Part shown: positions 472 to 13,238 of the stretch, piece by piece | Layout of the letters: each line of letters starts with the position of its first letter | Numbering within the stretch: position 1 is the first letter of the stretch | Assembly (NCBI GenBank): GCA_021788565.1 | Contig: JAJYKO010000057.1 | Location: 1-13,238, forward strand | Source: Chloroflexota bacterium | GTDB lineage: Bacteria > Chloroflexota > UBA6077 | Length of the DNA stretch: 13,238 nucleotides | Direction: 5' to 3' | Translations under genes and position numbers: made by a program | Notes under the pieces: model-generated | The model's input: the letters and a program-made list of their open reading frames with translations, nothing else | Databases searched by the model: none | What the model was told of the DNA's origin: nothing

Positions 472-1629
472 ATGAGCGACCGAGTGATTTACCTTGATAA
501 CGCTGCTACCACATTTCCCAAGCCCCGGGAAGTCCTCGATCGGATGATCGAGACCTACAGCCGGACGGGGGTATCCCCAGGTCGGGGGAGTTACGATCTG
601 GCGGTCGAGGCTGAAGATCTTGTCGCGCAGGCGAGACTCAAACTGGCTGGGTTCTTCGGCGCTCCAGACCCCGAGCGGGTCGTCTTCGCCTCGAACGCCA
701 CCGATGCATTGAACCTGGCGATTCAGGGGATGCTCGGCCCGGGGGATCACGTGGTATCCACGCGGCTGGAGCACAACTCGGTCCTGAGGCCACTTCACCA
801 TCTGAAGGAGCGAGGGTGGATAGACTTCGACCTCGTTCCCTTCGACTCGCATGGCTTCGTCGACCCCGCTGACGTGGCCCGTGCTATCCGCCCGAACACC
901 AGGCTGGCGATCGTATCGCACGCTTCCAATGTCCTGGGCACCATCCAGCCGGTGCAGGAGATAGCTCGTGCCTGCGGCGAGTGCGGCGTGCCCGTGCTGC
1001 TTGATGCCGCCCAGAGCGCCGGCCAGATCCCGATCGACATGACGGCCTGGTCGGTGAGCGCGGTGGCGTTCACCGGCCATAAGGCCCTGATGGGCCCGAG
1101 CGGAATCGGCGGGCTCGTGTGCTCTCCCGAGCTAGCCATCAGTTCCACCCGGTTTGGCGGTACCGGCATAGAGTCCCGAAGCCCCTTCCACACTCAAACC
1201 TTCCCTCATCGCCTCGAAGCGGGAACCATCAATCTGCTGGGGGTGATCGGCCTCTCGGCCGGGCTCGATTATCTGCAGAAGGAAGGCGTAGAGCGCATCC
1301 GCGAACGCGAGATGAGGCTACTGCGGCGGTTGCGAGATGGCCTTGCTTGCCTTGATAGGGTGATCCTGTACACCCCGCTGGAGAGCGAACGCTCCGTGCC
1401 CCTCACCATCTGTAACGTCGAGGGGCTGAATCCCATGGACGCGGGAGCCATCCTCGACGGCGACTACGACATCGCGGTCCGCACGGGCCTCCACTGTGCC
1501 CCGCTCGTGCATGCCGACCTCGGGATCGCCTCCGGTGGAGCGATTCGCTTCAGCCTGGGCTGCTTCAATACCGAGGAGGATATAGATGCGGCGTTGGGAG
1601 CCATGACCGAAATCTCCCGAAGGAAGTGA
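472..1629 (+). CDS. Class V aminotransferase / cysteine desulfurase (EF2568-like)
   Basis: This is a PLP enzyme of 385 residues, a normal length for the family. It starts with the typical YLDNAATTFPKP motif (residues 7-18). The PLP lysine is K204 in TGHKALMGPSGIGG, the aspartate that contacts the PLP ring is in LLDAAQ (about 178), and the catalytic cysteine is C342 in RTGLHCAPLVH. The family removes sulfur from cysteine, or selenium from selenocysteine, to give alanine and an enzyme-bound persulfide or selenide. It most resembles the EF2568-type subgroup, which commonly sits beside molybdenum hydroxylase genes. Supplying sulfur (or selenium) for the terminal Mo ligand, perhaps through the XdhC-like protein encoded downstream, is therefore the likely role, by inference. 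No strong ribosome binding site precedes the ATG; a 10-base palindrome GTACCGGTAC (461-470) abuts it. I see no SelD gene in the window, so sulfur is more likely than selenium. Confidence 0.88.
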   Translation: MSDRVIYLDNAATTFPKPREVLDRMIETYSRTGVSPGRGSYDLAVEAEDLVAQARLKLAGFFGAPDPERVVFASNATDALNLAIQGMLGPGDHVVSTRLEHNSVLRPLHHLKERGWIDFDLVPFDSHGFVDPADVARAIRPNTRLAIVSHASNVLGTIQPVQEIARACGECGVPVLLDAAQSAGQIPIDMTAWSVSAVAFTGHKALMGPSGIGGLVCSPELAISSTRFGGTGIESRSPFHTQTFPHRLEAGTINLLGVIGLSAGLDYLQKEGVERIREREMRLLRRLRDGLACLDRVILYTPLESERSVPLTICNVEGLNPMDAGAILDGDYDIAVRTGLHCAPLVHADLGIASGGAIRFSLGCFNTEEDIDAALGAMTEISRRK

Positions 1630-2152: not shown

Positions 2153-4903
2153 ATGCTGGACACGATCCCCAAGAAGGTAGCCACACGAAAGAGCCTCACT
2201 GTTAATGGTGTTCGTAGGGTGTTGGTCGTGGATCCCCAGATTTCTCTGGCGGACGTCCTTCGAGGCCAGTTGGGACTGACCGGCACCAAAGTCGGGTGCG
2301 GGACCGGTCAGTGCGGCTCTTGCGACGTCATCGTGGACGGCAAGATCATCAAGTCCTGCCACACGCCGATGAGCAAGATCGCAGACGAAGCCAAGATCAC
2401 GACCGTCGAGGGCGTGGGCACGCCGGAGAAGCTTCATCCCCTGCAGGTCGCGCTCATGGTGCACGGCGCGCCACAGTGCGGCTTCTGTATCCCCGGGTTC
2501 GTCGTCTCGGGCAAGGCCCTTCTGGACCAGAACGCCAATCCGACGCGGCAGGAGGTCCGGAGCTGGTTCCAGCACAACAACAATATCTGTCGCTGCAACG
2601 GTTACAAGCCGATCGTGGACGGAGTGATGGATGCGGCGCGCGTCCTTCGCGGCGAGATGACCATGGCGGACCTCGAGTACAAGCTGCCGGCGGACGGGAT
2701 GGTTTGGGGCGGCACGATGCCGCGGCCATCGGCCGTGGCGAAGGTGACGGGAACCGCTGACTATGGCGCCGATCTGGGGCTGAAGATGCCCCCGGACACG
2801 CTGAGGCTGGCTCTCGTTCAGGCCAGGGTATCCCACGCGAACATCCTCGGCATCGATACCTCCGAGGCGGAGAAGATGCCAGGAGTCTACAAGGTAGTGA
2901 CCCACAGGGACGTCAAGGGCAAGAACCGGATCACCGGCCTGATCACCTTCCCGACGAATAAGGGCGACGGGTGGGACCGGCCGATCCTCTGCGACACCAA
3001 GGTGTTCCAGTATGGCGACGCGCTCGCCATCGTCTGCGCGGACACGGAGGCGAACGCGAGGGCGGCTGCCGAGAAGGTCAAGGTAGACCTGGAGATTCTG
3101 CCGGCATACATGAGCGCCCCTGCTGCCATGGCTGACGACGCGATCGAAATCCACCCCGGCACGCCGAACGTCTACTTCGAACAGAAGATCGCCAAGGGGG
3201 ACGACACGGCCTCGATCATGGCCAGGGCCGCTTACACCGTAGAGGGGGACTACTACCTGCAGCGACAGCCCCATATGACCATCGAGCCGGACACCGGGTT
3301 AGCCTACTTCGATGAGGAGGGCCGGCTCACCATCCACTCCAAGAGCATCGGTATCCACCTCCATCACGCTATGATCTGCCCCGGCCTCGGAATCGAACCC
3401 GAGAAGCTGCGCCTGGTCCAGAACACAGCTGGGGCAACATTCGGCTACAAGTTCAGCCCCACCATGGAGGCGCTGCTCGGCGTGGCGTGCATGGCCACCG
3501 GCAGGCCGGTGTCCCTGACCTACGATTACGAGCAGCACATGATCTACACTGGCAAGCGGTCTCCGTTCTTCATCAAGCTCAAGTACGGTGCGGATGCCAG
3601 TGGTAAGATTGTGGCCATGGAGTCCGACTGGACGGTGGATCACGGCCCGTACTCGGAGTTCGGGGATCTGCTCACCCTGCGCGGTGCCCAGTTCATCGGC
3701 GCCGGATACGGCATTCCGAATATCCGAGGGCTCGGACGCACGGTGTGCACCAACCACGCGTGGGGCTCGGCATTCCGCGCGTACGGGTCGCCGCAGAGCT
3801 TCCTCGCCTCGGAGAGCCTGATGGACGAACTGGCGGAGAAGATGGGGATCGATCCCCTGGAGCTACGCTACCGCAACGTCTATCGTCCTGGTGACACTAC
3901 TCCGACCGGACAGGCTCCAGAGGTTTACAGCCTGCCGGAAGTGCTCGACAAGTTGCGCCCGGCCTACCAGAAAGCCCTCGCCAAGGCGAAGGCGGAGTCG
4001 AATCCCGAGGTCAAGTGTGGCGTCGGGATCTCCGTCGGTATCTACGGGTGCGGTCTCGATGGCAAGGACTCCTCCGAGGTTTGGGTCGAACTGGCGAAGG
4101 ACGGCGTCGTCCTTTACTGCACGTGGGAAGATCACGGGCAAGGCGCGGACATGGGTGCCCTTGGCACGGCTCACATGGCACTGCGCCCTCTCGGAATCGC
4201 CCCTGACAAGATCAAGCTGGTGATGAACGATACCGCCATTACGCCCAACAGCGGCCCGTCGGGGGGCAGCAGGCAGCAGGTTGTGACCGGCAACGCCATC
4301 AAGAACGGCTGCGAGATGCTCGTCAACGCCATGCGTAAGCCGGATGGCAGCTACCGCACTTACGATGAGATGGTAGCGGAGAACATTCCGCTGCGCTACT
4401 CTGGCAAGTGGGTGGCTTCGGTGGCCAGTTCCTGTGACGAGAATGCCCAGGGGGCGCCCTTCTCCACCTACATGTACGGTGCGTTCATGGCCGAGGTCGC
4501 GGTGGACACGAAGACCGGCAGGACCCAGGTGGAGAAGATTACCGCGGTGGCAGACGTCGGCAAGGTCAATAACAAGCTGGTGGTCGACGGCCAGATGTAC
4601 GGGGGCATAGCTCAGGGCATCGGTTTGGCACTGAGCGAGGACTTCGAGGACATCAAGAAGCACACCAGCATGGTCGCCGCCGGTATTCCTATGATCAGGG
4701 ATATTCCAGACGACATAGAGCTGATATACGTTGAGACCCCGAGGCCAGACGGACCGTTCGGCGCGGCCGGCGTTGGGGAATTGCCGCTCACCTCGCCGCA
4801 CGTCGCGGTGGTCAACGCGATCAAGAACGCAACGGGAGTGCGAATCCGCAACCTGCCGGCGCGACCGGAGAAGGTGCTGGCGGGGCTACAGCAGCTCGGA
4901 TAG
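2153..4903 (+). CDS. mop: Molybdenum hydroxylase, aldehyde oxidoreductase
   Basis: This 916-residue enzyme belongs to the xanthine oxidase family and is close to the D. gigas aldehyde oxidoreductase (907 residues) along its whole length. That enzyme oxidises aldehydes to carboxylic acids using molybdopterin cytosine dinucleotide and two [2Fe-2S] clusters, with no FAD domain. The plant-type cluster cysteines are C49, C54, C57 and C69 (GCGTGQCGSC). The second cluster uses C109, C112, C146 and C148 (QCGFC and CRCNGY). The Mo domains include KGKNRITGLITFPTNKGDGW (about 262-281), EDHGQGAD, SGPSGGSRQQV and the catalytic glutamate E876 in GVGELPLTSPH. All key residues are present and there is no frameshift. 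AGGAGAG 5 bases before the ATG supports the start. The protein has no signal peptide and is cytoplasmic. Physiological substrate and electron acceptor are unknown; the next gene is the obvious candidate acceptor. Corresponds to the DVU_1559 position of the Desulfovibrio cluster. Confidence 0.95.
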   Translation: MLDTIPKKVATRKSLTVNGVRRVLVVDPQISLADVLRGQLGLTGTKVGCGTGQCGSCDVIVDGKIIKSCHTPMSKIADEAKITTVEGVGTPEKLHPLQVALMVHGAPQCGFCIPGFVVSGKALLDQNANPTRQEVRSWFQHNNNICRCNGYKPIVDGVMDAARVLRGEMTMADLEYKLPADGMVWGGTMPRPSAVAKVTGTADYGADLGLKMPPDTLRLALVQARVSHANILGIDTSEAEKMPGVYKVVTHRDVKGKNRITGLITFPTNKGDGWDRPILCDTKVFQYGDALAIVCADTEANARAAAEKVKVDLEILPAYMSAPAAMADDAIEIHPGTPNVYFEQKIAKGDDTASIMARAAYTVEGDYYLQRQPHMTIEPDTGLAYFDEEGRLTIHSKSIGIHLHHAMICPGLGIEPEKLRLVQNTAGATFGYKFSPTMEALLGVACMATGRPVSLTYDYEQHMIYTGKRSPFFIKLKYGADASGKIVAMESDWTVDHGPYSEFGDLLTLRGAQFIGAGYGIPNIRGLGRTVCTNHAWGSAFRAYGSPQSFLASESLMDELAEKMGIDPLELRYRNVYRPGDTTPTGQAPEVYSLPEVLDKLRPAYQKALAKAKAESNPEVKCGVGISVGIYGCGLDGKDSSEVWVELAKDGVVLYCTWEDHGQGADMGALGTAHMALRPLGIAPDKIKLVMNDTAITPNSGPSGGSRQQVVTGNAIKNGCEMLVNAMRKPDGSYRTYDEMVAENIPLRYSGKWVASVASSCDENAQGAPFSTYMYGAFMAEVAVDTKTGRTQVEKITAVADVGKVNNKLVVDGQMYGGIAQGIGLALSEDFEDIKKHTSMVAAGIPMIRDIPDDIELIYVETPRPDGPFGAAGVGELPLTSPHVAVVNAIKNATGVRIRNLPARPEKVLAGLQQLG

Positions 4904-4943
4904 GCCGCTGGAGGCGACGAACTCCTTATAGCGACACAAGAAG

Positions 4944-4977
4944 TGGGAGCGGGCTCTCGCGAGAGGGTCCGCTCCCA
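4944..4977 (+). promoter_or_regulatory. Strong intercistronic hairpin between mop and the FAD/Fe-S gene
   Basis: TGGGAGCGG (4944-4952) pairs perfectly with CCGCTCCCA (4969-4977). Inside it lies a perfect 12-base palindrome, CTCTCGCGAGAG (4954-4965), which gives a very stable nested stem. No T-run follows, so it is not a canonical intrinsic terminator. In this position it could protect the 3' end of a mop-only transcript or set its level relative to the downstream genes. Its presence also argues against starting the next gene as far left as 4943. Confidence 0.6.
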
Positions 4978-4992
4978 GGTGCAATCTGCCCC

Positions 4993-4997
4993 GGAGG
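4993..4997 (+). promoter_or_regulatory. Ribosome binding site that fixes the start of the FAD/Fe-S gene
   Basis: GGAGG lies 8 bases before the GTG at 5006. No comparable site precedes the more upstream in-frame GTG at 4943, which sits within the hairpin's base. Confidence 0.7.
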
Positions 4998-5005
4998 TGG
5001 AGCGC

Positions 5006-7408
5006 GTGGGCACAGGATACCTGAGCATGGGGCAGCAGGGGCTCCGGCAAGCCGAGGAACGCTGCATCCAGGAACACCCGCCCGCCTGCACCGCTGCCTG
5101 CCCGGTGCACGTCGACGTCCGCGCGATGGCGGCCCAGATCGGCCGCGGTGAATTCACCGCCGCGCTGAACACCCTCAGGAGAACAGTACCGTTCCCCGGT
5201 ATCATCAGCCGAGTCTGCGGTCAACCGTGCCGCGCCGTGTGCAAACGCGGCGAGAAGGGCGACCCCATCGCCATAAGCGCTCTGGAGCGCGCATGCGCCG
5301 ACCTCGGCATCGCCACGACGGAGCCAGCCATCCCCGCCCGCCTGGAGGCCGCGCGAGTGGCGGTCGTCGGCGGCGGATTGAGCGGCGCGACGGCGGCCCT
5401 CTACCTGGCCCGTAAGGGGTACTCAGTCCATATCTTCGAGGCCACTGATAGACTTGGCGGTAGCCTCTGGAGCATGCCGAACGATGTACTGCCTGGAGAT
5501 CTGGTACGGGACGAGCTGAACATCCTGCGACAGATAGGGGTAGGAATCAGCTTCAACACGCGAGTCGATCGGGAAGTCCCATTCGAGTCGGTCTGCCGGG
5601 AGTTCCGTGCGGTCTACCTGGCGGTTGGAGCGGACTCCCCGGACTCCTTCGGCCTCACCATGGATGATCGCGGCCGCATCGCCGTGGCCGCGGTGACGTT
5701 CGCCACGGGCCGAAACGGGGTCTTTGCGGGAGGCGCGCTGCGTCAGGATTCGCGGAGCACGTCCGCAATCGATGCCCTTGCCGACGGACGCTACGCCGCG
5801 ACGTCGATCGACCGCTACCTGCAGGGGGCCTCACTGACGGCCGCGCGGGAGCGGGAAGGAAGCTACACGACTCGCCTCTTCACGAGCACTGAAGGAGTGG
5901 AGCTTTCGCCGGAGGTGCTCGCGAGCCATCCGGCCTCGGGATACATTCCGGAAGAGGCCGCGCAGGAGGCCGGGCGATGTCTCCAGTGCGAGTGCATGGA
6001 GTGCGTGAAGGTCTGCACATATCTCGAGCGCTTCGGGAGCTATCCCAGGAGGTACCTCAGGCAGGTGTACAACAACCTGGCGATCGTCTCGGGCAACCAC
6101 ACGGCCAATAAGCTGATCAACTCGTGCAGCCTGTGCGGGCTCTGCGGTGAGGTCTGCCCAGAGAAGCTCGACATGGGAGAGGTGTGCCTGGAGGCGAGAG
6201 AGATCATGGTGGGCCGCGGCAAGATGCCGCCGTCCGTCCACGATTTCGCCCTGCGGGACATGCTCTTCAGCATCGGCGAGAACTTCGCCATGGCTCGTCA
6301 CCAACCCGGATCAGAAACAAGCGCGTTTCTGTTCTTCCCCGGTTGCCAGCTGGCTGCTTCCAGTCCGAACCACGTCGAGGCGACTTACCACTATTTAATG
6401 GAGCGGTTGTCTGGCGGAGTCGGCCTGATGCTGGGTTGCTGCGGCGCCCCGGCAGAGTGGGCCGGACGAACCGACCTGTCCCAGGGCGTGTGGGACTGGG
6501 TCACGGCGACCTGGCGCGAAATGGGGCGCCCACGATGGGTATTGGCATGCTCTAGCTGCTTGCGGACCTTCAGGGCCCACGCCCCGACCGGCATGGAGGC
6601 AGTTTCGCTCTGGGAGCTGATGGATGAGCTTGGCTTACCACCCAAACCAGCCGCCGCATCCGAGGCTGATGGGTCGGCGCCCAGGCTGGCCGTTCAAGAT
6701 CCTTGCTCCGCGAGGTACGACAACGGACTTCAGGACAGCGCCCGCAGCCTGCTCTTGAAACTCGGCTATACAGTCGAAGAGCCGGCCCTGAGTCGGCAAA
6801 GAACGGAGTGCTGCGGTTACGGCGGATTGATGGCCTTCGCCAACCCCGAACTAGCCCACGAGGTCGTCAAGAAGAGAATAGAGGCAAGCCCCACGGACTA
6901 TGTTGCCTATTGCGCCATGTGCCGGGATCGGTTCGCCGGTCAGGGAAAACGGACCTGGCATCTGCTCGACCTGATCTTTGGACCCGGCACTCCCGGCTCT
7001 TCGGACGGATCGGACTCGGCCGGCGGTCTCGATCCGGCATCCATGCCAGGGCCTGGATACTCCCAGCGGCACGAGAACCGAGCCCGGCTGAAAAGGCGGT
7101 TGCTGAAGGAGCTATGGAGAGACGATGTGAAGGAGCCTGAAGGGTGGGAGACGATCAGACTCAGCATGTCCCCTGAAGTGGCTGAGCGGCTGGAGAAACG
7201 GCTCATTCTGGCGGAAGACGTGCAGCAGGTCATCGATTTGGCGGAACGGACGGGACGAAAGCTGCTGGCGCCCGGGAGCGGCCACTTCCTGGCTCACTCC
7301 AAACCCGCGGCGGTCACTTACTGGGTGGAGTACTCGAAGCAAGACGACGAGTTCGTGGTGCACAATGCCTACAGCCACCGCATGGTGATCCAGGAGGAGG
7401 ACCGGTGA
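5006..7408 (+). CDS. FAD / multi-Fe-S / CCG-domain oxidoreductase (DVU_1558-like)
   Basis: This is an 800-residue electron-transfer fusion. In order it has: a GltD-type N-terminal Fe-S domain (C20, C28, C32, C71, C75, C79); an FAD Rossmann motif VAVVGGGLSG (about 118-127); and the end of the flavin domain (GVFAGG, about 238). Two ferredoxin-like cysteine groups follow, from C325 (CLQCECMECVKVC) and C374 (CSLCGLCGEVCP). Then come two HdrB/HdrD-like CCG cysteine motifs, at 478 (GCCGAP) and 602 (ECCGYGG), and a charged C-terminal domain of about 115 residues that I do not recognise. CCG motifs bind unusual iron-sulfur clusters in heterodisulfide reductases. Only about 30 residues separate LAVGAD from GVFAGG, so the second, NAD(P)H-binding Rossmann domain of the GltD family seems absent. 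It probably passes electrons from Mop to another carrier. The DVU_1558 family is annotated as pyridine nucleotide-disulfide oxidoreductase/dicluster-binding protein. The gene overlaps the next by 4 bases. Confidence 0.85.
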   Translation: MGTGYLSMGQQGLRQAEERCIQEHPPACTAACPVHVDVRAMAAQIGRGEFTAALNTLRRTVPFPGIISRVCGQPCRAVCKRGEKGDPIAISALERACADLGIATTEPAIPARLEAARVAVVGGGLSGATAALYLARKGYSVHIFEATDRLGGSLWSMPNDVLPGDLVRDELNILRQIGVGISFNTRVDREVPFESVCREFRAVYLAVGADSPDSFGLTMDDRGRIAVAAVTFATGRNGVFAGGALRQDSRSTSAIDALADGRYAATSIDRYLQGASLTAAREREGSYTTRLFTSTEGVELSPEVLASHPASGYIPEEAAQEAGRCLQCECMECVKVCTYLERFGSYPRRYLRQVYNNLAIVSGNHTANKLINSCSLCGLCGEVCPEKLDMGEVCLEAREIMVGRGKMPPSVHDFALRDMLFSIGENFAMARHQPGSETSAFLFFPGCQLAASSPNHVEATYHYLMERLSGGVGLMLGCCGAPAEWAGRTDLSQGVWDWVTATWREMGRPRWVLACSSCLRTFRAHAPTGMEAVSLWELMDELGLPPKPAAASEADGSAPRLAVQDPCSARYDNGLQDSARSLLLKLGYTVEEPALSRQRTECCGYGGLMAFANPELAHEVVKKRIEASPTDYVAYCAMCRDRFAGQGKRTWHLLDLIFGPGTPGSSDGSDSAGGLDPASMPGPGYSQRHENRARLKRRLLKELWRDDVKEPEGWETIRLSMSPEVAERLEKRLILAEDVQQVIDLAERTGRKLLAPGSGHFLAHSKPAAVTYWVEYSKQDDEFVVHNAYSHRMVIQEEDR

Positions 7409-7617
7409 GCGATCAGCAGAACCAGACTGAAGAGAGCGACTGGATCTGCGACATCTGCGGAGTATCGCTGGAGTGGGGAAGGGTGACCGTGTCGTACCTC
7501 GCCAGCGCCTTCCCAGTTGACATGCTTCGCTGTCCACGATGCGGTCAGGTTTTTCTCCCAGAGGAACTCGCGCTCGTCAAGATGGCCGAGGTTGAGAGCG
7601 CCCTGGAAGACAAGTGA
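7405..7617 (+). CDS. Small CxxC/CxxC redox protein (DVU_1557-like)
   Basis: This 70-residue protein has two CxxC pairs, C15/C18 (WICDICG) and C43/C46 (RCPRCGQVF), an arrangement that fits a rubredoxin-like or zinc-ribbon site. It ends in a conserved-looking acidic helix (EELALVKMAEVESALEDK). The pattern matches the DVU_1557 family of small redox proteins, always found with these molybdenum hydroxylase clusters as far as I recall. It starts with a GTG inside the stop of the preceding gene (GTGA overlap), with a GGAGGAGG ribosome binding site directly upstream, so the two genes are translationally coupled. An electron shuttle for the preceding FAD/Fe-S protein, or a metal-binding chaperone, are both possible. 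Whether the site binds Fe or Zn cannot be told from sequence. Confidence 0.8.
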   Translation: MSDQQNQTEESDWICDICGVSLEWGRVTVSYLASAFPVDMLRCPRCGQVFLPEELALVKMAEVESALEDK

Positions 7618-7641
7618 GCAAAGTGCCAGAGGAGGAATTTC

Positions 7642-8085
7642 ATGACCGACCACAGTCTGCGCATGATGGAGCTTGGACGGCAGGGTTTCTACTGCAGCCA
7701 GATCCTGCTTGCATTGGGGCTGGAGGCTCAGGGCAAGAACAACCCGGATCTGATCCGTTCCATGGCGGGACTGGCGGGGGGACTGGGATTCACGGGAGAC
7801 ACCTGTGGCGCCCTGAGCGGTGGGGCGTGCCTTCTGGGGCTTTACGCTGGCAAAGGTACGGTCGACGAAGAAGAGGACAGCCAGTTGAATCTGATGATCG
7901 GTGAGCTCGTCGAGTGGTTCAAGGAGGAGTACGGGGCGCTGTACGGGGGCACGACCTGCGAGACCATCCTGGCCGACGACGCGCGCAACCGGATAACCCG
8001 CTGCCCGAACCTTGTGTCGGGCGTCTTCGAGAAGGTCCGGTTACTTCTCGGCTCGTACGGATACCCGCCAGAGGCAAACCAATGA
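7642..8085 (+). CDS. C-GCAxxG-C-C family protein (DVU_1555-like)
   Basis: This 147-residue protein has the spaced cysteines of the C_GCAxxG_C_C family: C18 (FYCSQ), C55 in the core motif TCGALSGGAC, C63 in the same stretch, C106 (TTCETIL) and C121 (RCPNL). The usual GCA is TCGALSGG here, a common variant. Family members are thought to bind a metal or an iron-sulfur cluster, but none in this subgroup has a proven function that I know of. AGGAGG 7 bases before the ATG at 7642 fixes the start. In D. vulgaris a methyltransferase gene lies between this gene and the CxxC redox protein; here the gap is only 24 bases, so that gene is missing from this slot. Confidence 0.85.
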   Translation: MTDHSLRMMELGRQGFYCSQILLALGLEAQGKNNPDLIRSMAGLAGGLGFTGDTCGALSGGACLLGLYAGKGTVDEEEDSQLNLMIGELVEWFKEEYGALYGGTTCETILADDARNRITRCPNLVSGVFEKVRLLLGSYGYPPEANQ

Positions 8086-8127
8086 GGCATGGTTCAGTGT
8101 TGGGGTCGCAGTCCGGGGGAAGGCGAG

Positions 8128-8199
8128 GGGAGGGCGAAGCTCCTGCTGAGCCGCCTGTTTCCTACCGACGTGGCGGCTCGCCAGGAGGCTCGCCCTCCC
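8128..8199. repeat. 72-base imperfect palindrome between C-GCAxxG-C-C and radical SAM genes
   Basis: The 28-base arms, 8128-8155 and 8172-8199, match at 24 of 28 positions when one is reversed and complemented, around a 16-base centre. The arms are of the GGGAGGGCGA...GAGCCGCC type seen as dispersed palindromic repeats in many high-GC genomes. The element nearly fills an otherwise unused 148-base gap inside an operon whose other late genes overlap or touch. It would form a long RNA hairpin between two co-transcribed genes. It has no transposase, so it is a REP-like or miniature mobile element rather than an IS. Confidence 0.75.
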
Positions 8200-8233
8200 A
8201 GATTGCCATCCCATCCAGGTGTTCTGGTGAACC

Positions 8234-9607
8234 ATGCTACCAATGATCCCAGCCGGCACGGAGCGGGTCCTCTCGGCCACCTGGAGCGTCTGCCCGCGCT
8301 GTCTGGCCCGAATACCTGCCAGCCGCGTGGCCCGCGGCGACGAGGTCTACCTCCGGAAGGTGTGTCCAGAACACGGTCCCTTCGAGGTGGTGATCTGGCG
8401 GGGCGTTCCGGACTATACCTCTTGGACGGAAAACGGCAGCGATAGCGCAGCCGTACTTCCGAACACGGAGGGCGATGAGGGGTGCCCCTTTGACTGCGGC
8501 CACTGCACGGCTCACGGCCGCCCGACCTGCTGCGCCCTCGTGGAGGTTACCGCGCGGTGCGATCTGGGGTGCCGTTTCTGCTTCGCGGACGCCGGTCGTG
8601 GCCGGGCGGCGGATCCGCCGATCGAAGCCCTCGGCGTCCGATTCCGAAAGCTGCTGTCAGGGAGACAGCTCTGCAACCTTCAGCTGTCGGGCGGAGAACC
8701 GACCCTCAGAGATGACCTGCCGGACGTCATCGCCCTGGCTCGCTCCATGGGCTTCCAGTTCATTCAGCTCAACAGCAACGGGAGGCGACTCGCCAGAGAT
8801 CCCGGCTACGCGGCGGGGCTCAAGGAAGCGGGCTTATCCTGCGTGTTCCTTCAGTTCGATGGCACCGACGACGAGATCTATCGAAACATTCGAGGCCGTG
8901 CGCTGCTCTCAGAGAAACTCGCAGCCATCCGTATCTGCGGCGAACTCAATCTAGGTGTGGTGCTGGTTCCCACCCTGGTGCCCGGGGTCAATACCCATGA
9001 CGTCGGTGCGTTGGTGAGGTTCGGGCTCGCGAACGCCCCGGCCGTGCGGGGCGTGCATTTCCAACCCGTGAGCTACTTCGGGCGCTATCCGAAGCCACCC
9101 GCCGACGGCGATCGGATAACCGTGCCAGAGGTGATCCGCGCTATCGCCGAGCAGACGGGTGGGCTCATTCGCCAGGAGAGCTTCAAGCCGGGCGAGTCCG
9201 AGAACCCGTACTGCTCTTTTCACGGCAACTTCTTGCCCATGCCAGACGGTGACTTGATATCGCTGACCAGGCATGAGTCTCGATCCTGTTGCCAACCGGG
9301 ACCCGATCCAGCCGGTGCCGCCAGGGATTTCGTGGCGAGACAGTGGTCATCGCCGCGGATCGAGACCGCTGGCACCTCCAGCGACAGGCCGGACCGCGAC
9401 AGCTGGAGCGCGCTGTTGAACGGCCTACGCACCCGAACCTTCACCGTCTCCGGGATGGCTTTTCAGGACGCGTGGAACCTGGATCTGGAGCGACTGCGGG
9501 ACTGCCACGTTCACGTCGCGGCGAGCGACGGAAGGGTGATTCCATTCTGCGCCTACAATCTGACGGATGTGTACGGACGCGGCCTCTACCGGTCGGAGAT
9601 TGCCTGA
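8234..9607 (+). CDS. Radical SAM protein, TrsS-like (DVU_1554 position)
   Basis: This 457-residue protein has the radical SAM cluster motif C109-x3-C113-x2-C116 (RCDLGCRFCF) and the SAM-contact motif SGGEPT (152-157). Before the barrel is a zinc-ribbon-like segment (C20, C23, C44, H47) and a cysteine-rich stretch (C84, C88, C91, C99, C100, in CPFDCGHC and TCC). After it, further cysteines and a PFCAYNLTD motif lie near the C-terminus. This layout resembles MJ0619- and tetraether-synthase-like enzymes and fits the TrsS family, whose members are often selenoproteins. Here the reading frame has no in-frame TGA, so it is a cysteine form. The reaction is unknown; a radical methylation or C-C/C-S bond step on a cofactor is possible. 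The start ATG has only a weak upstream site; ATG 8243 is an alternative. The next gene begins at the base after its stop. Confidence 0.82.
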   Translation: MLPMIPAGTERVLSATWSVCPRCLARIPASRVARGDEVYLRKVCPEHGPFEVVIWRGVPDYTSWTENGSDSAAVLPNTEGDEGCPFDCGHCTAHGRPTCCALVEVTARCDLGCRFCFADAGRGRAADPPIEALGVRFRKLLSGRQLCNLQLSGGEPTLRDDLPDVIALARSMGFQFIQLNSNGRRLARDPGYAAGLKEAGLSCVFLQFDGTDDEIYRNIRGRALLSEKLAAIRICGELNLGVVLVPTLVPGVNTHDVGALVRFGLANAPAVRGVHFQPVSYFGRYPKPPADGDRITVPEVIRAIAEQTGGLIRQESFKPGESENPYCSFHGNFLPMPDGDLISLTRHESRSCCQPGPDPAGAARDFVARQWSSPRIETAGTSSDRPDRDSWSALLNGLRTRTFTVSGMAFQDAWNLDLERLRDCHVHVAASDGRVIPFCAYNLTDVYGRGLYRSEIA

Positions 9608-11002
9608 ATGGACCCTGTGGAAATCACCCGTATGGACGCGTGGATCGCGCGCAAGATCGGCGCTACCGCCTCGAATCCGGCGAGGGACGAAATAGAGGCC
9701 TACCAGCTCCGAAAGATGGATGAGACGCTGCGGTACGCGCGTAGCAAGAGCCCTTTCTACCGGACTCGTCTCTCTAGAGATGGCGATACCGAACTTTCGA
9801 GCGTGGCGGACCTGGCGCGGCTTCCATTCACCACGGCGGCGGACCTGCGGTGCAACGGCCTCCAGCTGCTGTGCGTTTCACAGGGCGAGATAGAGCGGGT
9901 CGTGACGCTGCAGACCTCTGGAACCACCAGCGAGCCCAAGAGACTGTACTTCACTCGGGACGACCAGGAGCTGACTCTCGACTTCTTCCAGGTCGGAATG
10001 TCTACCTTCGTGGGCGCTGGCGAACGAGCGATGATCCTTCTTCCCGGGGAGAGGCCGGGGAGCGTGGGCGACCTTCTGGCAGCAGCGCTGCGAAGGATGA
10101 ATGTGGAGCCGATCCCGCACGGGCCGGTGAAGGACGTTTCTCGCGCCCTTGACATCCTCGTGCAGGATCGGATCGACAGCCTGGTTGGAATGCCCGCCCA
10201 GCTTCTCTGGTTGGCCCGAGCCGGCGAGGCGATCGGTAAGGTACCGCCGAGGGTCCGAAGCGTTCTGCTCACAGCGGACTACGTCCCGCCAGCTATCTTG
10301 CGTGAAATCCAGCGTATCTGGGGCTGCGAGCCCTTCGAGCACTACGGGATGACGGAGATGGGGCTGGGTGGAGGCGTGGAGTGCCACGCTCACGAGGGCT
10401 ACCACGTGCGTGAAGCCGACCTCTACCTGGAGATCGTCGACCCTGGCAACGGCCGGCAGCTACCAGATGGGGAGAGCGGAGAGGTTGTGGTGACGACCCT
10501 CACCAGACGCGGCATGCCGCTGATCCGTTATCGCACGGGCGATATCAGCAGGTTCATCCCCGGACCGTGCCCGTGCGGCACTAGCTTGAAGAGGCTAGAG
10601 CGCGTGAGGGGTCGCCTCGACGACGGTGTCAGATTGGGCGATGGCAATCTACTGTCGATGGCCGACCTGAGCGACGCGCTTTTCCCGATGCGTGGCCTGC
10701 TAGGCTTCACCGCCGCGGTCACGGGAGGCCTTGAAGGAGACGCCCTGCGTATCGAGGCTACCTGCGTAGAGGGGGTGGACTCCGAGGTTACGGCGGGGGT
10801 TCGAGCCGCGCTGAAAACCATTCCACCAGTCGCTGCCGCTGCATCGGCCGGCCGAGTCGAGCTTTCCGTCGCCGTGAGATCTTCGGACCTCTCCAGCATT
10901 CCGGATCAAGGGAAGATGAGGATCATGGACCGCAGGAACCAGGATTCCGATCCCCCACGCCTCGCCTCACGGACGGGATCGGCCGGGAGGGTGGGGGCGT
11001 GA
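9608..11002 (+). CDS. Adenylate-forming ligase, PaaK-like (DVU_1553 family)
   Basis: This 464-residue protein is of the phenylacetate-CoA ligase type in the ANL superfamily, which activate a carboxylate with ATP and usually transfer it to coenzyme A. The ATP loop is TSGTTSEPK (103-111). The A5 motif is HYGMTEMG (245-252) and the conserved aspartate is D312 in YRTGDIS. A CPCG pair and GRLDDGV follow, as in PaaK, and a lysine sits near the C-terminus (PDQGKMR). All core motifs are present. The substrate cannot be read from sequence. It may be the acid made by Mop from an aldehyde, or a carboxylate on a cofactor precursor, since the DVU_1553 family travels with the radical SAM gene. It starts directly after the radical SAM stop, with GGAG about 10 bases upstream, and overlaps the next gene by 4 bases. 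Confidence 0.87.
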   Translation: MDPVEITRMDAWIARKIGATASNPARDEIEAYQLRKMDETLRYARSKSPFYRTRLSRDGDTELSSVADLARLPFTTAADLRCNGLQLLCVSQGEIERVVTLQTSGTTSEPKRLYFTRDDQELTLDFFQVGMSTFVGAGERAMILLPGERPGSVGDLLAAALRRMNVEPIPHGPVKDVSRALDILVQDRIDSLVGMPAQLLWLARAGEAIGKVPPRVRSVLLTADYVPPAILREIQRIWGCEPFEHYGMTEMGLGGGVECHAHEGYHVREADLYLEIVDPGNGRQLPDGESGEVVVTTLTRRGMPLIRYRTGDISRFIPGPCPCGTSLKRLERVRGRLDDGVRLGDGNLLSMADLSDALFPMRGLLGFTAAVTGGLEGDALRIEATCVEGVDSEVTAGVRAALKTIPPVAAAASAGRVELSVAVRSSDLSSIPDQGKMRIMDRRNQDSDPPRLASRTGSAGRVGA

Positions 11003-12138
11003 AGCGGGACCGCTCAAAGATCGTGGGGCTGATCCTGGCCGCGGGGTACTCGTCCCGGATGGGAGAGTTCAAGCCGCTACTGCCCGTGGGCGATTCCACC
11101 GCCATCGAGAGGTGCGTCGGGAGCCTCCGCGACGCCGGCATCGAGGACGTACGGGTCGTCGTCGGATGGAAAGCAGAGGAACTGATCCCTCACCTCCATC
11201 GCCTGAAGGCCGGCACGGTGCTCAACCCCGCCTTCGCGGACGGGATGTACTCGTCGGTGATGGCCGGGGTCAGCTACCTCCCGCCAGAGACACAGGCATT
11301 CGTCCTGCTCCCCGTGGACACCCCGTTGGTGAAACCCCGGACTGTCCGAGAGTTGGTCCAGCGCTTCCTTGAGAGCGAGGCCACGGTGGTATATCCGCGC
11401 TTCCTCGATCGGCGAGGCCATCCTCCAGTCGTATCGACCTCCTGCCTCTCAGGTGCACCCGCGTCCGATCCGCCGGCCGGTCTTCGATCCGTGCTGTCGC
11501 GGTACGAAGACAGTGCGCTGGTCGTAGACGTGGTCGACCAGGGGACGGTGATGGACATGGACACTCCCGAGGATTACGAGGATCTGCGACGCTACTGCTC
11601 CAGGGAGGGCGTGCCCACCGAATCCGAGTGTGAGGCCCTGCTCGCTGTGCGGCGGCTGCCCGAGCGCGTGATCCAACATTCGCGAAAGGTGGCGAAAGTG
11701 GCGCTCAGGATCGCGTCCCTACTGCAACAGAATGGACTCGCCCTGGACCTGGACATCGTCCTGGCGGCTGCGCTTCTTCACGACATCGCCAGGGATCTGC
11801 CGAACCATGCTGCCGAGGGCGCGAGGATCGTCTCGGAGATCGGCTACCCACGAGTAGCCGCCTGCATCTCACGACACATGGATCTGGAGCCGGACCGCGT
11901 GCATGAGCTGGCCGAAGACCAGTTAGTTTACCTGGCGGACAAACTGGTCAAGGAGGACCTCGTCGTGTCGATTCAGGAGAGGCTAGCGCTGACGGCGGCT
12001 CGCCATGCCGGTCAGTCGGAGGCGTTGGACAGCGCGACGGCTCGGCTTCGGGATGCGGAAATCATCCTGGACCAGGTTGCGGGGAAGTTGGGAACGTCCG
12101 CGGATCGGATAGTGGCCGATTTGGGGGGTGCTGAATGA
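10999..12138 (+). CDS. MocA-like nucleotidyltransferase fused to an HD domain (DVU_1551-like)
   Basis: This 379-residue two-domain protein starts with a MobA/MocA-type NTP transferase domain, residues 7 to about 200. It carries the signature LILAAGYSSRMGEFKPLLPV (11-30), with K25 in the nucleotide site, and metal-binding aspartates at D107 (PVDTP) and D188 (DMDTP). MocA joins CMP to molybdopterin to make the cytosine dinucleotide form, the form used by D. gigas Mop, so this is the likely role. The second domain (about 215-330) is an HD phosphohydrolase: H227, H261-D262 (LLHDIARD), H270 and H293. What it hydrolyses is unknown; candidates are a nucleotide by-product or the dinucleotide cofactor itself. 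It starts with GTG inside the stop of the ligase gene after a GGGAGGG ribosome binding site, and its last 4 bases overlap the phosphatase gene. Confidence 0.87.
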   Translation: MKRDRSKIVGLILAAGYSSRMGEFKPLLPVGDSTAIERCVGSLRDAGIEDVRVVVGWKAEELIPHLHRLKAGTVLNPAFADGMYSSVMAGVSYLPPETQAFVLLPVDTPLVKPRTVRELVQRFLESEATVVYPRFLDRRGHPPVVSTSCLSGAPASDPPAGLRSVLSRYEDSALVVDVVDQGTVMDMDTPEDYEDLRRYCSREGVPTESECEALLAVRRLPERVIQHSRKVAKVALRIASLLQQNGLALDLDIVLAAALLHDIARDLPNHAAEGARIVSEIGYPRVAACISRHMDLEPDRVHELAEDQLVYLADKLVKEDLVVSIQERLALTAARHAGQSEALDSATARLRDAEIILDQVAGKLGTSADRIVADLGGAE

Positions 12139-12737
12139 AAACCGACCGGCGCCTGTACGTTGCCAGGCATGGGGATGTCGGCCTGCCCGCCGGCCAGAAG
12201 TACTTCGAAGGCCAGGTCGACCTGCCCCTGTCCGAGATTGGGGTGAAGCAAGCCCGCCGCCTGGCGGAGGGGTTGAGGGACGTTTCCCTGTCAGGGGTGT
12301 TCTGCAGCGACCTCGTCCGGTCGCGCGAAACTGCACGCGTCATCGCCGCGCCACACCACCTTGACTCTGTGGCCAGAGAGGATCTCAGGGAAATCCACCT
12401 TGGCGAATGGGACGGGCTCAGCTTCGCCGAGGTCCAGCGGCGCTACCCCGGTGAATTTCTCGAGCGTGGTCGCGACATAGTCCACTTGCGGCCCCCGGGC
12501 GGCGAGAGCTTCCTCGAGTGCTCCAGGAGGGTGCGGAGCGCTCTCGAAGAGATCCTCCGCAGCATCGACGGGGACGTGCTGATCGTCGGGCATCTCGGCG
12601 TAAATCGACTGATTCTGTGCGATGCCCTTGGAATACCCCTGGAAAACATGTTCAGGATCGACCAGCCCTATGGCAGCCTGAGCATCCTGAGGCAGGGCGA
12701 CTACGGCTGGCGCCTGGAGAGATTGGGAGCCGCGTGA
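12135..12737 (+). CDS. Histidine phosphatase superfamily protein
   Basis: This 200-residue protein is of the phosphoglycerate mutase/CobC type. The catalytic RHG is R11-H12-G13 (VARHGD). The second arginine is R63 or R65 in SDLVRSRET, the acid is E86 (LREIHLGEW), and the second histidine is H153 (IVGHLGVNR). All catalytic residues are present, so it should be active on a phosphomonoester through a phosphohistidine intermediate. Overall it looks most like alpha-ribazole phosphatase (CobC), but there is no cobalamin gene nearby. Context suggests a nucleotide- or pterin-linked phosphate tied to the preceding MocA-HD protein, which is inference. ATGA overlap with the preceding stop implies translational coupling. 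Confidence 0.88.
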   Translation: MKTDRRLYVARHGDVGLPAGQKYFEGQVDLPLSEIGVKQARRLAEGLRDVSLSGVFCSDLVRSRETARVIAAPHHLDSVAREDLREIHLGEWDGLSFAEVQRRYPGEFLERGRDIVHLRPPGGESFLECSRRVRSALEEILRSIDGDVLIVGHLGVNRLILCDALGIPLENMFRIDQPYGSLSILRQGDYGWRLERLGAA

Positions 12738-12758
12738 TGTGGTTATGGAGGGGAGGTT

Positions 12759-13238
12759 ATGACTGACTTCATAGAGAGTGTCATCAACGCCATCGAGGCG
12801 GGGAGAGGTGTGACCCTCGCGACCATCGTTGGCCCCGCCAGCATGCCTCAAGGTATGCTCGGGCGGAAACTGGTCGTTCATTCGGACGGGCGGGTGGATG
12901 GGACCCTCGGGGTCACTTCACTCGACGAACGGGTTGGCCGCGAACTGCAGAATGCTGGTCCAGCGGCTTCTCCGAGACTCGTCTCCCTCGCGCTCACGAA
13001 GGACGAGGCGAGCAGCCTTGGGGTGGAGCCGAATACCTCTATGCACATCTTCCTGGACGTCATGACCCCACCACCGACTTTGCTGATTGTTGGATCCGGC
13101 CACGTCGCCCAGCCGGTGAGCTCGATCGGCAAGCTGCTCGGGTTCCGCGTCGTGGTGCTGGACGACCGCGAGTCGTTCGCCAATCGGGAGCGCTTCCCCG
13201 ATGCCGACCAGATCCTCGTCGGGGAATTCAGTCAGGAA
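12759..13238 (+). CDS. XdhC-family molybdenum hydroxylase maturation protein (3' truncated by window)
   Basis: Translation from the ATG at 12759 is open for 160 codons to the window edge. GGAGG (12747-12751) is 7 bases upstream. The N-terminal part matches the XdhC/CoxI domain (GRGVTLATIVG, about 15-25). From about residue 108 a Rossmann-type XdhC C-terminal domain begins: TLLIVGSGHVAQPV, KLLGFRVVVLDDRESFA, RFPDADQILVG. XdhC binds the molybdenum cofactor, helps swap its oxo ligand for sulfur with a cysteine desulfurase, and inserts it into the hydroxylase; this fits the desulfurase and mop genes upstream. The usual GSIGGGCVE motif of the first domain is replaced by GTLGVTSLDERV, with no cysteine or GGG. 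The protein is therefore a divergent XdhC whose sulfur-transfer cysteine may be elsewhere or absent. Confidence 0.87.
   Translation, partial: MTDFIESVINAIEAGRGVTLATIVGPASMPQGMLGRKLVVHSDGRVDGTLGVTSLDERVGRELQNAGPAASPRLVSLALTKDEASSLGVEPNTSMHIFLDVMTPPPTLLIVGSGHVAQPVSSIGKLLGFRVVVLDDRESFANRERFPDADQILVGEFSQE

Follow-up and report, generated by a model that had tools for sequence, protein, structure and literature searches.

A radical SAM and ligase gene set adjoining a molybdenum-dependent aldehyde oxidoreductase gene in a Chloroflexota bacterium

Gene content and order of the locus

We analyzed a 13,238-nucleotide stretch of DNA from a Chloroflexota bacterium (assembly GCA_021788565.1, contig JAJYKO010000057.1), referred to here as the window, in which the gene for a molybdopterin-dependent aldehyde oxidoreductase (Mop) is followed by genes for TrsS, which is a radical S-adenosylmethionine (SAM) enzyme, for a PaaK-like adenylating ligase, and for putative redox proteins. 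Mop and this gene set are conserved together far beyond chance, kinship being uncorrected. Since a sister form of the set occurs in genomes without Mop, it is more probably a separate pathway accompanying the oxidase than the maker of a special molybdenum cofactor.

All genes of the set lie on the + strand, from position 2153 to the window end. A reading made from the sequence alone (the sequence-only reading) had named seven families here: Mop, a flavin adenine dinucleotide (FAD)/dicluster protein, a CxxC protein, a C-GCAxxG-C-C protein, TrsS, the ligase, and a nucleoside triphosphate (NTP) transferase. All seven were confirmed as adjacent genes above the NCBI curated cut-offs. The features are listed below; unit A and core denote the two units proposed in the Discussion.

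472..1629, + strand: cysteine-desulfurase-family protein of the EF2568 type (TIGR01977, 412.5 bits, cut-off 377), an occasional neighbour
2153..4903, + strand: Mop, unit A (NF045668, 1673.7 bits, cut-off 1100)
4943..7408, + strand: FAD/dicluster protein, called the joint protein (NF045663, 1031.1 bits, cut-off 530; parts from Pfam, domain model predicted)
7405..7617, + strand: DVU_1557-type CxxC protein, DUF7479 (NF045645, 90.9 bits, cut-off 60; PF24292)
7642..8085, + strand: DVU_1555-type C-GCAxxG-C-C protein, core (NF045669, 173.1 bits, cut-off 103)
8234..9607, + strand: TrsS, Tes-like radical SAM enzyme, Cys form, core (NF045646, 624 bits, cut-off 490)
9608..11002, + strand: DVU_1553-type PaaK-like adenylating ligase, core (NF045666, 490.8 bits, cut-off 300)
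10999..12138, + strand: DVU_1551-type NTP transferase, MocA-like, with a C-terminal HD domain (PF01966), unit A (NF045665, 421.8 bits, cut-off 315)
12135..12737, + strand: histidine phosphatase, a frequent neighbour (TIGR03162, 165.7 bits, cut-off 162.9; PF00300)
12759..13238, + strand: XdhC-family gene cut by the window end at 13238, unit A (PF02625, PF13478)

The top NCBI family for the XdhC-family gene was NF045664, at 92.7 of 350 bits on the incomplete protein. The NTP transferase resembles MocA in sequence (128.5 bits against TIGR03310, under the cut-off of 186.45) and is filed under NF045665; together with XdhC it is the ordinary cofactor supply within the set.

The gene order had been described as near-identical to that of Desulfovibrio DVU_1551-1559. 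The order held, but the set in the window is incomplete and XdhC is displaced; in addition, the cysteine-desulfurase-family gene lies upstream of mop, before the coordinates given in that reading. A DVU_1556-type methyltransferase (NF045667) gave no meaningful tblastn match within the window, though the rest of the genome might hold one, and the XdhC gene lies 3' of the phosphatase gene, whereas many relatives have it between the ligase and NTP transferase genes. The DVU order itself was deduced from the NCBI family names, from published work that lists DVU_1559 as an aldehyde oxidoreductase, and from the closely similar gene order in the genome that has the Desulfovibrio gigas mop gene (L100).

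The gene set is already catalogued at NCBI as families, and the adjacent accessions and names suggest that NF045645, NF045646 and NF045663-NF045669 form one curated set. TrsS was reportedly named in a 2025 paper by Haft and Tolstoy. Literature searches found no functional study of the gene set.

Co-occurrence of Mop and TrsS across genomes

The association was examined in 498 genomes sampled evenly from three phyla, those of G003 (148 genomes), G002 (199 genomes), and G001 (151 genomes), the centres G001-G003 having been picked because they carry TrsS. In each genome, scoring was limited to the top 4-5 first-look candidates for Mop and to 8-10 for TrsS. TrsS was present in 24 of the 26 Mop genomes, and Mop was present in 24 of the 30 TrsS genomes (Fisher P = 4e-33, or 1e-29 without G001-G003; kinship uncorrected). 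In the G003 phylum, Mop was above the cut-off in nine genomes and present as a piece in G128 (890 bits), and all 10 had TrsS; TrsS was above the cut-off in 14 genomes and split across two frames in G063, and the ligase was above its cut-off in exactly these 15 genomes (G063 counted as split). In the G002 phylum, Mop was found in 13 genomes and as contig-end pieces in two others (G394 and G397), TrsS was found in 12 genomes and at a contig edge in G393 (469.5 bits), and 13 of the 15 Mop genomes had TrsS. Mop lies at a contig end in both Mop genomes that lacked TrsS, G394 and G404. The G001 phylum held Mop in one genome and TrsS in two.

No TrsS was found, at the thresholds used, in any of the nine genomes whose best match was merely Mop-like, at 671-837 bits (G057, G071, G113, G166, G260, G285, G368, G378, and G442). 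One of them, G260, carries four Mop-like genes of 800-837 bits (C3, C5, C91).

A Desulfovibrio-like order, that of G100, was also searched (150 genomes), with Mop detected by its match to a 103-residue Mop piece. The piece was found in 90 genomes, TrsS in 85, both in 83, and neither in 58 (Fisher P = 5e-31, again uncorrected for kinship), and the two genes were less than 10 kb apart in 75 of the 83 genomes with both. When the seven Mop-only loci were inspected, TrsS proved to lie next to Mop in G599, G648, and G659, and the contigs of G593, G595, and G597 ended near Mop. After this inspection, 86 of the 90 Mop genomes had TrsS, with one clear exception, G522. Among the TrsS-only genomes, G583 breaks off at the TrsS gene and G661 just before the joint protein gene. 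The tight linkage of the set to this Mop subtype, which had been claimed from the window, is therefore seen in the three phyla and in the Desulfovibrio-like order alike.

Neighbourhoods of TrsS and the core without Mop

The TrsS loci are the best 80 of 563 relatives and so lean to close relatives. Among the 49 of them with at least 8 kb upstream and at least 6 kb downstream (wide loci), the methyltransferase, the C-GCAxxG-C-C protein, and the ligase were each present in 49, Mop in 46, XdhC in 32, the NTP transferase in 27, and the histidine phosphatase in 26. Three wide loci show no Mop (L037, L052, and L075), but their genomes carry it elsewhere. The methyltransferase was present in 70 of the 74 loci among the first 80 that show the CxxC protein, the C-GCAxxG-C-C protein, and the ligase. 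A match to the xanthine oxidase (XO) family was found in all of 24 chosen TrsS genomes, and Mop was above the cut-off in 19 of them; the other five reached 584 bits (G007), 256 bits (G008), 451 bits (G012), 779 bits (G020), and 887 bits (G023), the G020 match being full length but merely Mop-like and the G023 match being a cut piece.

Frequent occurrence of the radical SAM and ligase genes without a molybdenum hydroxylase had been named as evidence against the sequence-only reading. We found such genomes in a minority: TrsS occurred without Mop in 6 of the 30 TrsS genomes (G155, G099, G132, G149, G063, and G292). No XO-family hydroxylase was found at E <= 1e-30 in G155, G099, G132, and G063, while G149 and G292 have other XO-family members. 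The six corresponding loci (L081-L085 and L089) held the methyltransferase and TrsS in all six cases, the ligase in five (the G099 ligase is on another contig than TrsS), and the C-GCAxxG-C-C protein in three, in L089 at merely 31.8 bits. Mop, the NTP transferase, XdhC, and the CxxC protein gave no match in these loci, and in L089 a phosphatase match lies about 5 kb away. TrsS and the ligase were over or near the cut-off in five of the six Mop-free genomes by genome search, and were found in G292 by locus.

Trees were built that place five of the six Mop-free TrsS proteins, L084 being left out. FastTree supported the Mop-free clade at 0.994 but the Mop-linked side at 0.486. In the IQ-TREE run, which used 59 of the 118 sequences, TrsS as a whole was supported at 100, the Mop-free clade at 99, and the Mop-linked clade at 95. 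The Mop-free clade is sister to the Mop-linked TrsS, which fits a single event that brought Mop and the core together, or a single early loss. The window TrsS was paired with that of L063 in FastTree (0.946), a pairing not upheld in IQ-TREE.

Proteins of the set

The joint protein, of 821 residues, has by Pfam a GltD-like flavin part (about 30-310) and a dicluster and CCG part (about 340-690), and its C-terminal domain of about 95 residues (about 723-821) is predicted to have a RelE/BrnT-like fold. One CCG motif was found by the strict pattern and two by eye. In the Mop-free loci the dicluster part is a separate gene in L081, L082, and L084 (3/6 loci), with its CCG motifs kept, and the RelE-fold last domain is a separate gene in L082, L083, L085, and L089. 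The flavin part was found in none of the six Mop-free loci, compared with 84 of the 103 other loci (P = 9e-5); this count covers the loci and not whole genomes, and the loci are not independent, since among the 103 are incomplete loci and stretches of a single genome that overlap (L098, L100). The joint protein is best read as a bridge between the Mop unit and the core. Because Mop is like xanthine oxidase minus its flavin domain, as the excerpts of PMC10223205 describe it, the flavin part may well be the electron acceptor of Mop, for which it is an obvious candidate. The same excerpts call the natural electron partner of D. gigas Mop only putative and report that flavodoxin accepts its electrons in vitro.

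By its sequence, TrsS is a member of the Tes-like radical SAM superfamily. It matched the Tes structure 7TOL with 279 bits, aligned over residues 4-325 and 392-443, and the Tes family NF045702 with 348 bits, under the cut-off of 450. The CxxxCxxC and auxiliary cysteines (C109, C113, C116, C84, C88, C91, and C327) were present in 98 of 98 TrsS and 17 of 17 Tes-like proteins. W64, R159, C235, and H275 are conserved specifically in TrsS relative to the Tes-like proteins, and the conserved TrsS residues are common to the Mop-linked and Mop-free settings. A selenoprotein form of TrsS in the window was excluded, the gene being an uninterrupted frame of 457 codons with no in-frame TGA. At another locus (L069, 9980-12154; protein P0010), TrsS is fused to DUF5714 (PF18978), which is similar to a portion of the selenoprotein family MbdU; none of the other genes of the set matched in L069.

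The structures nearest to the ligase were of the PaaK type (4R1L, 138 bits), and the protein contains TSGTT, YGMTE, RTGD, and GKMR, which we take to be its adenylation motifs. The C-GCAxxG-C-C protein had no significant sequence match in PDB. Comparison of its predicted structure suggests a redox-type fold, and it is probably an iron-centre redox protein.

Mop and the D. gigas enzyme

The window Mop matched D. gigas Mop (1SIJ) with 1432 bits across residues 12-912, and the motifs FGYKF, AFRxYG, and GVGELPL of 1SIJ are also present in it. By analogy with this relative, it would bind molybdopterin cytosine dinucleotide (MCD) and two [2Fe-2S] centres and oxidise aldehydes. G608 encodes a 103-residue Mop stretch with 100% identity, and because of that stretch we treat this genome as coming from D. 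gigas or from a strain almost identical to it. Next to its mop gene (L100) lie the genes for the joint protein, the CxxC protein, the methyltransferase, the C-GCAxxG-C-C protein, TrsS, the ligase, XdhC, and the phosphatase.

D. gigas Mop was the first structure of the XO family (PMC10223205). According to the available parts of two papers (PMC10223205, PMC3877041), the purified enzyme contains ordinary MCD and two Fe-S centres, and its cofactor has been resolved at up to 1.28 A. Those of PMC3877041 also state that Mop oxidises many aldehydes, long-chain ones included, and that the activity of the D. gigas enzyme varies with the redox state of the dithiolene.

Neighbouring genes and other frames

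The cysteine-desulfurase-family protein at 472-1629 may have a role in cofactor sulfuration; such a gene was found near TrsS in 5 of the 49 wide loci and in 7 of the full 80. An open frame at 1626-1949 (107 codons) overlaps the end of the desulfurase gene, and a minus-strand frame at 3-314 is cut by the window start; neither had a Pfam or NCBIfam match, and the second, judged by eye, presumably resembles the start of an IS110-type transposase. In L087, L096, L097, and L041, MoeA-like genes lie directly before mop, and in some of these loci iron-type alcohol dehydrogenase genes lie near the set, both labelled by eye from the sequence.

Discussion

We propose, with about an even chance of being right, that the locus consists of two joined units, one being Mop with its cofactor supply and the other a core that stands by itself, and that the joint protein bridges them. 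The two-unit architecture is well supported, and the reaction sequence is a proposal. Unit A would comprise Mop, the MocA-like NTP transferase, and XdhC, to which the cysteine desulfurase may be added in this window. The core, unit B, would comprise the methyltransferase (none in the window), TrsS, the PaaK-like ligase, the C-GCAxxG-C-C protein, and the dicluster/CCG protein with its RelE-fold domain. The flavin part would take electrons from Mop and hand them to the dicluster/CCG part. An acid, perhaps the product of Mop, would be activated by the ligase, and the methyltransferase and TrsS would act on one compound, by methyl transfer and by a 5'-deoxyadenosyl-radical step that, by analogy with Tes, may concern a C-C or C-S bond. 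Mop would then be an optional aldehyde-oxidising and electron-feeding step in a small-molecule pathway.

Several observations weigh against this proposal. The Mop gene of G522 (L101, 9420-12140) has none of the set within 20 kb, and no TrsS was found in that genome at the threshold used. In G112, a second Mop gene (L088, 7327-10056) stands apart from the set, which lies elsewhere in the genome. The NTP transferase and XdhC, missing from the Mop-free loci, are absent from many Mop loci too, being present in only 27 and 32 of the 49 wide loci. The FastTree support for the Mop-linked side is merely 0.486, and the Mop-free sample is six loci, with the flavin part sought in those loci only. Furthermore, because Mop takes many aldehydes and flavodoxin works in vitro, as the excerpted accounts have it (PMC3877041, PMC10223205), no special acceptor would be required.

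The sequence-only reading had offered two meanings for the linkage, a modified or additional cofactor and a full pathway for one substrate, and as a whole it is partly supported. Of the two, a modified molybdenum cofactor is not supported, and a pathway for a single substrate with Mop as one step is a candidate that fits better. Because the set adjoins the D. gigas mop gene and that enzyme has plain MCD in the accounts cited above, it is unlikely that the set permanently modifies the molybdenum cofactor, a judgement that takes the published structures as they stand.

It is possible, though less likely than not, that this is an undescribed anaerobic pathway in which the radical SAM enzyme, the ligase, the methyltransferase, and the HdrD-like protein make or use a redox-active small molecule, with Mop recruited to it and the flavin part as its natural acceptor. 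Another explanation, which we consider doubtful, is that the product of the core is a diffusible redox carrier or thiol cofactor. Mop would pass electrons to this carrier, and the joint protein would act on it with its HdrD-like half; its synthesis would involve formation of a C-C or C-S bond by TrsS, methylation by the methyltransferase, and activation of a carboxylate by the ligase. The HdrD-type CCG motifs of the joint protein, kept in the Mop-free proteins that have this part, speak for such a carrier, as do the predicted redox-type fold of the C-GCAxxG-C-C protein and the genome co-occurrence, in which Mop depends on the core and not the reverse; however, the carrier is so far only hypothetical, and D. 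gigas Mop gives electrons to flavodoxin in vitro in the excerpts of PMC10223205.

It is unlikely that the set serves a bacterial lipid pathway in which TrsS joins or alters alkyl chains like archaeal Tes, and Mop and the ligase act on long-chain aldehydes and acids. The nearest solved relative of TrsS is Tes, the cluster cysteines are common to TrsS and the Tes-like proteins, Mop accepts long-chain aldehydes (PMC3877041, in part), and bacterial Tes homologues have been proposed to have lipid roles in the available part of PMC8941075. However, TrsS falls short of the Tes cut-off (348 of 450 bits) and forms a separate clade with its own W64, R159, C235, and H275, and the ligases nearest to that of the window are of the PaaK type. 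Least probable is that the core matures or repairs Mop by altering, installing, or keeping active its molybdenum cofactor, perhaps transiently: the core almost always accompanies Mop, NCBI calls the neighbouring XdhC family a maturation factor, and the activity of D. gigas Mop is tied to the dithiolene redox state (PMC3877041, in part), but the enzyme from a genome type that has the set contains plain MCD in the excerpts of PMC10223205 and PMC3877041, the core occurs in four genomes in which no XO-family hydroxylase was found, and the G522 Mop stands without the set.

If the set does form a separate pathway, the genes beside mop would be direct candidates for revealing the acceptor and the substrate, and laboratory sulfate reducers would offer a way to test the radical SAM step. 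The locus also calls for caution, in that a conserved neighbourhood need not mean cofactor maturation.

Comparison with known systems

The window TrsS can be aligned with Tes (7TOL) and has in common with the Tes-like proteins the radical SAM and auxiliary cysteines, but it is below the Tes cut-off and lies in a separate clade with conserved residues of its own. The joint protein shares the 4Fe-4S dicluster and CCG domain of heterodisulfide-reductase-type proteins, with two CCG-like motifs by eye, but has one strict motif and carries a GltD-like flavin part and a RelE-fold domain in the same chain. The C-GCAxxG-C-C protein gave a Foldseek E value of 0.095 with the iron-centre domain of split-Soret cytochrome c (1H21). 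In comparison with the NCBIfam families NF045645, NF045646, and NF045663-NF045669, the window has seven above the cut-off in near-identical order, but it is without the methyltransferase NF045667, and its XdhC, which has NF045664 as best match, is incomplete. D. gigas is a different organism from that of the window, and the window is without the methyltransferase gene of the G608 locus, but the window Mop matches D. gigas Mop (1SIJ/1VLB) over its full length and the G608 mop locus has the same neighbours.

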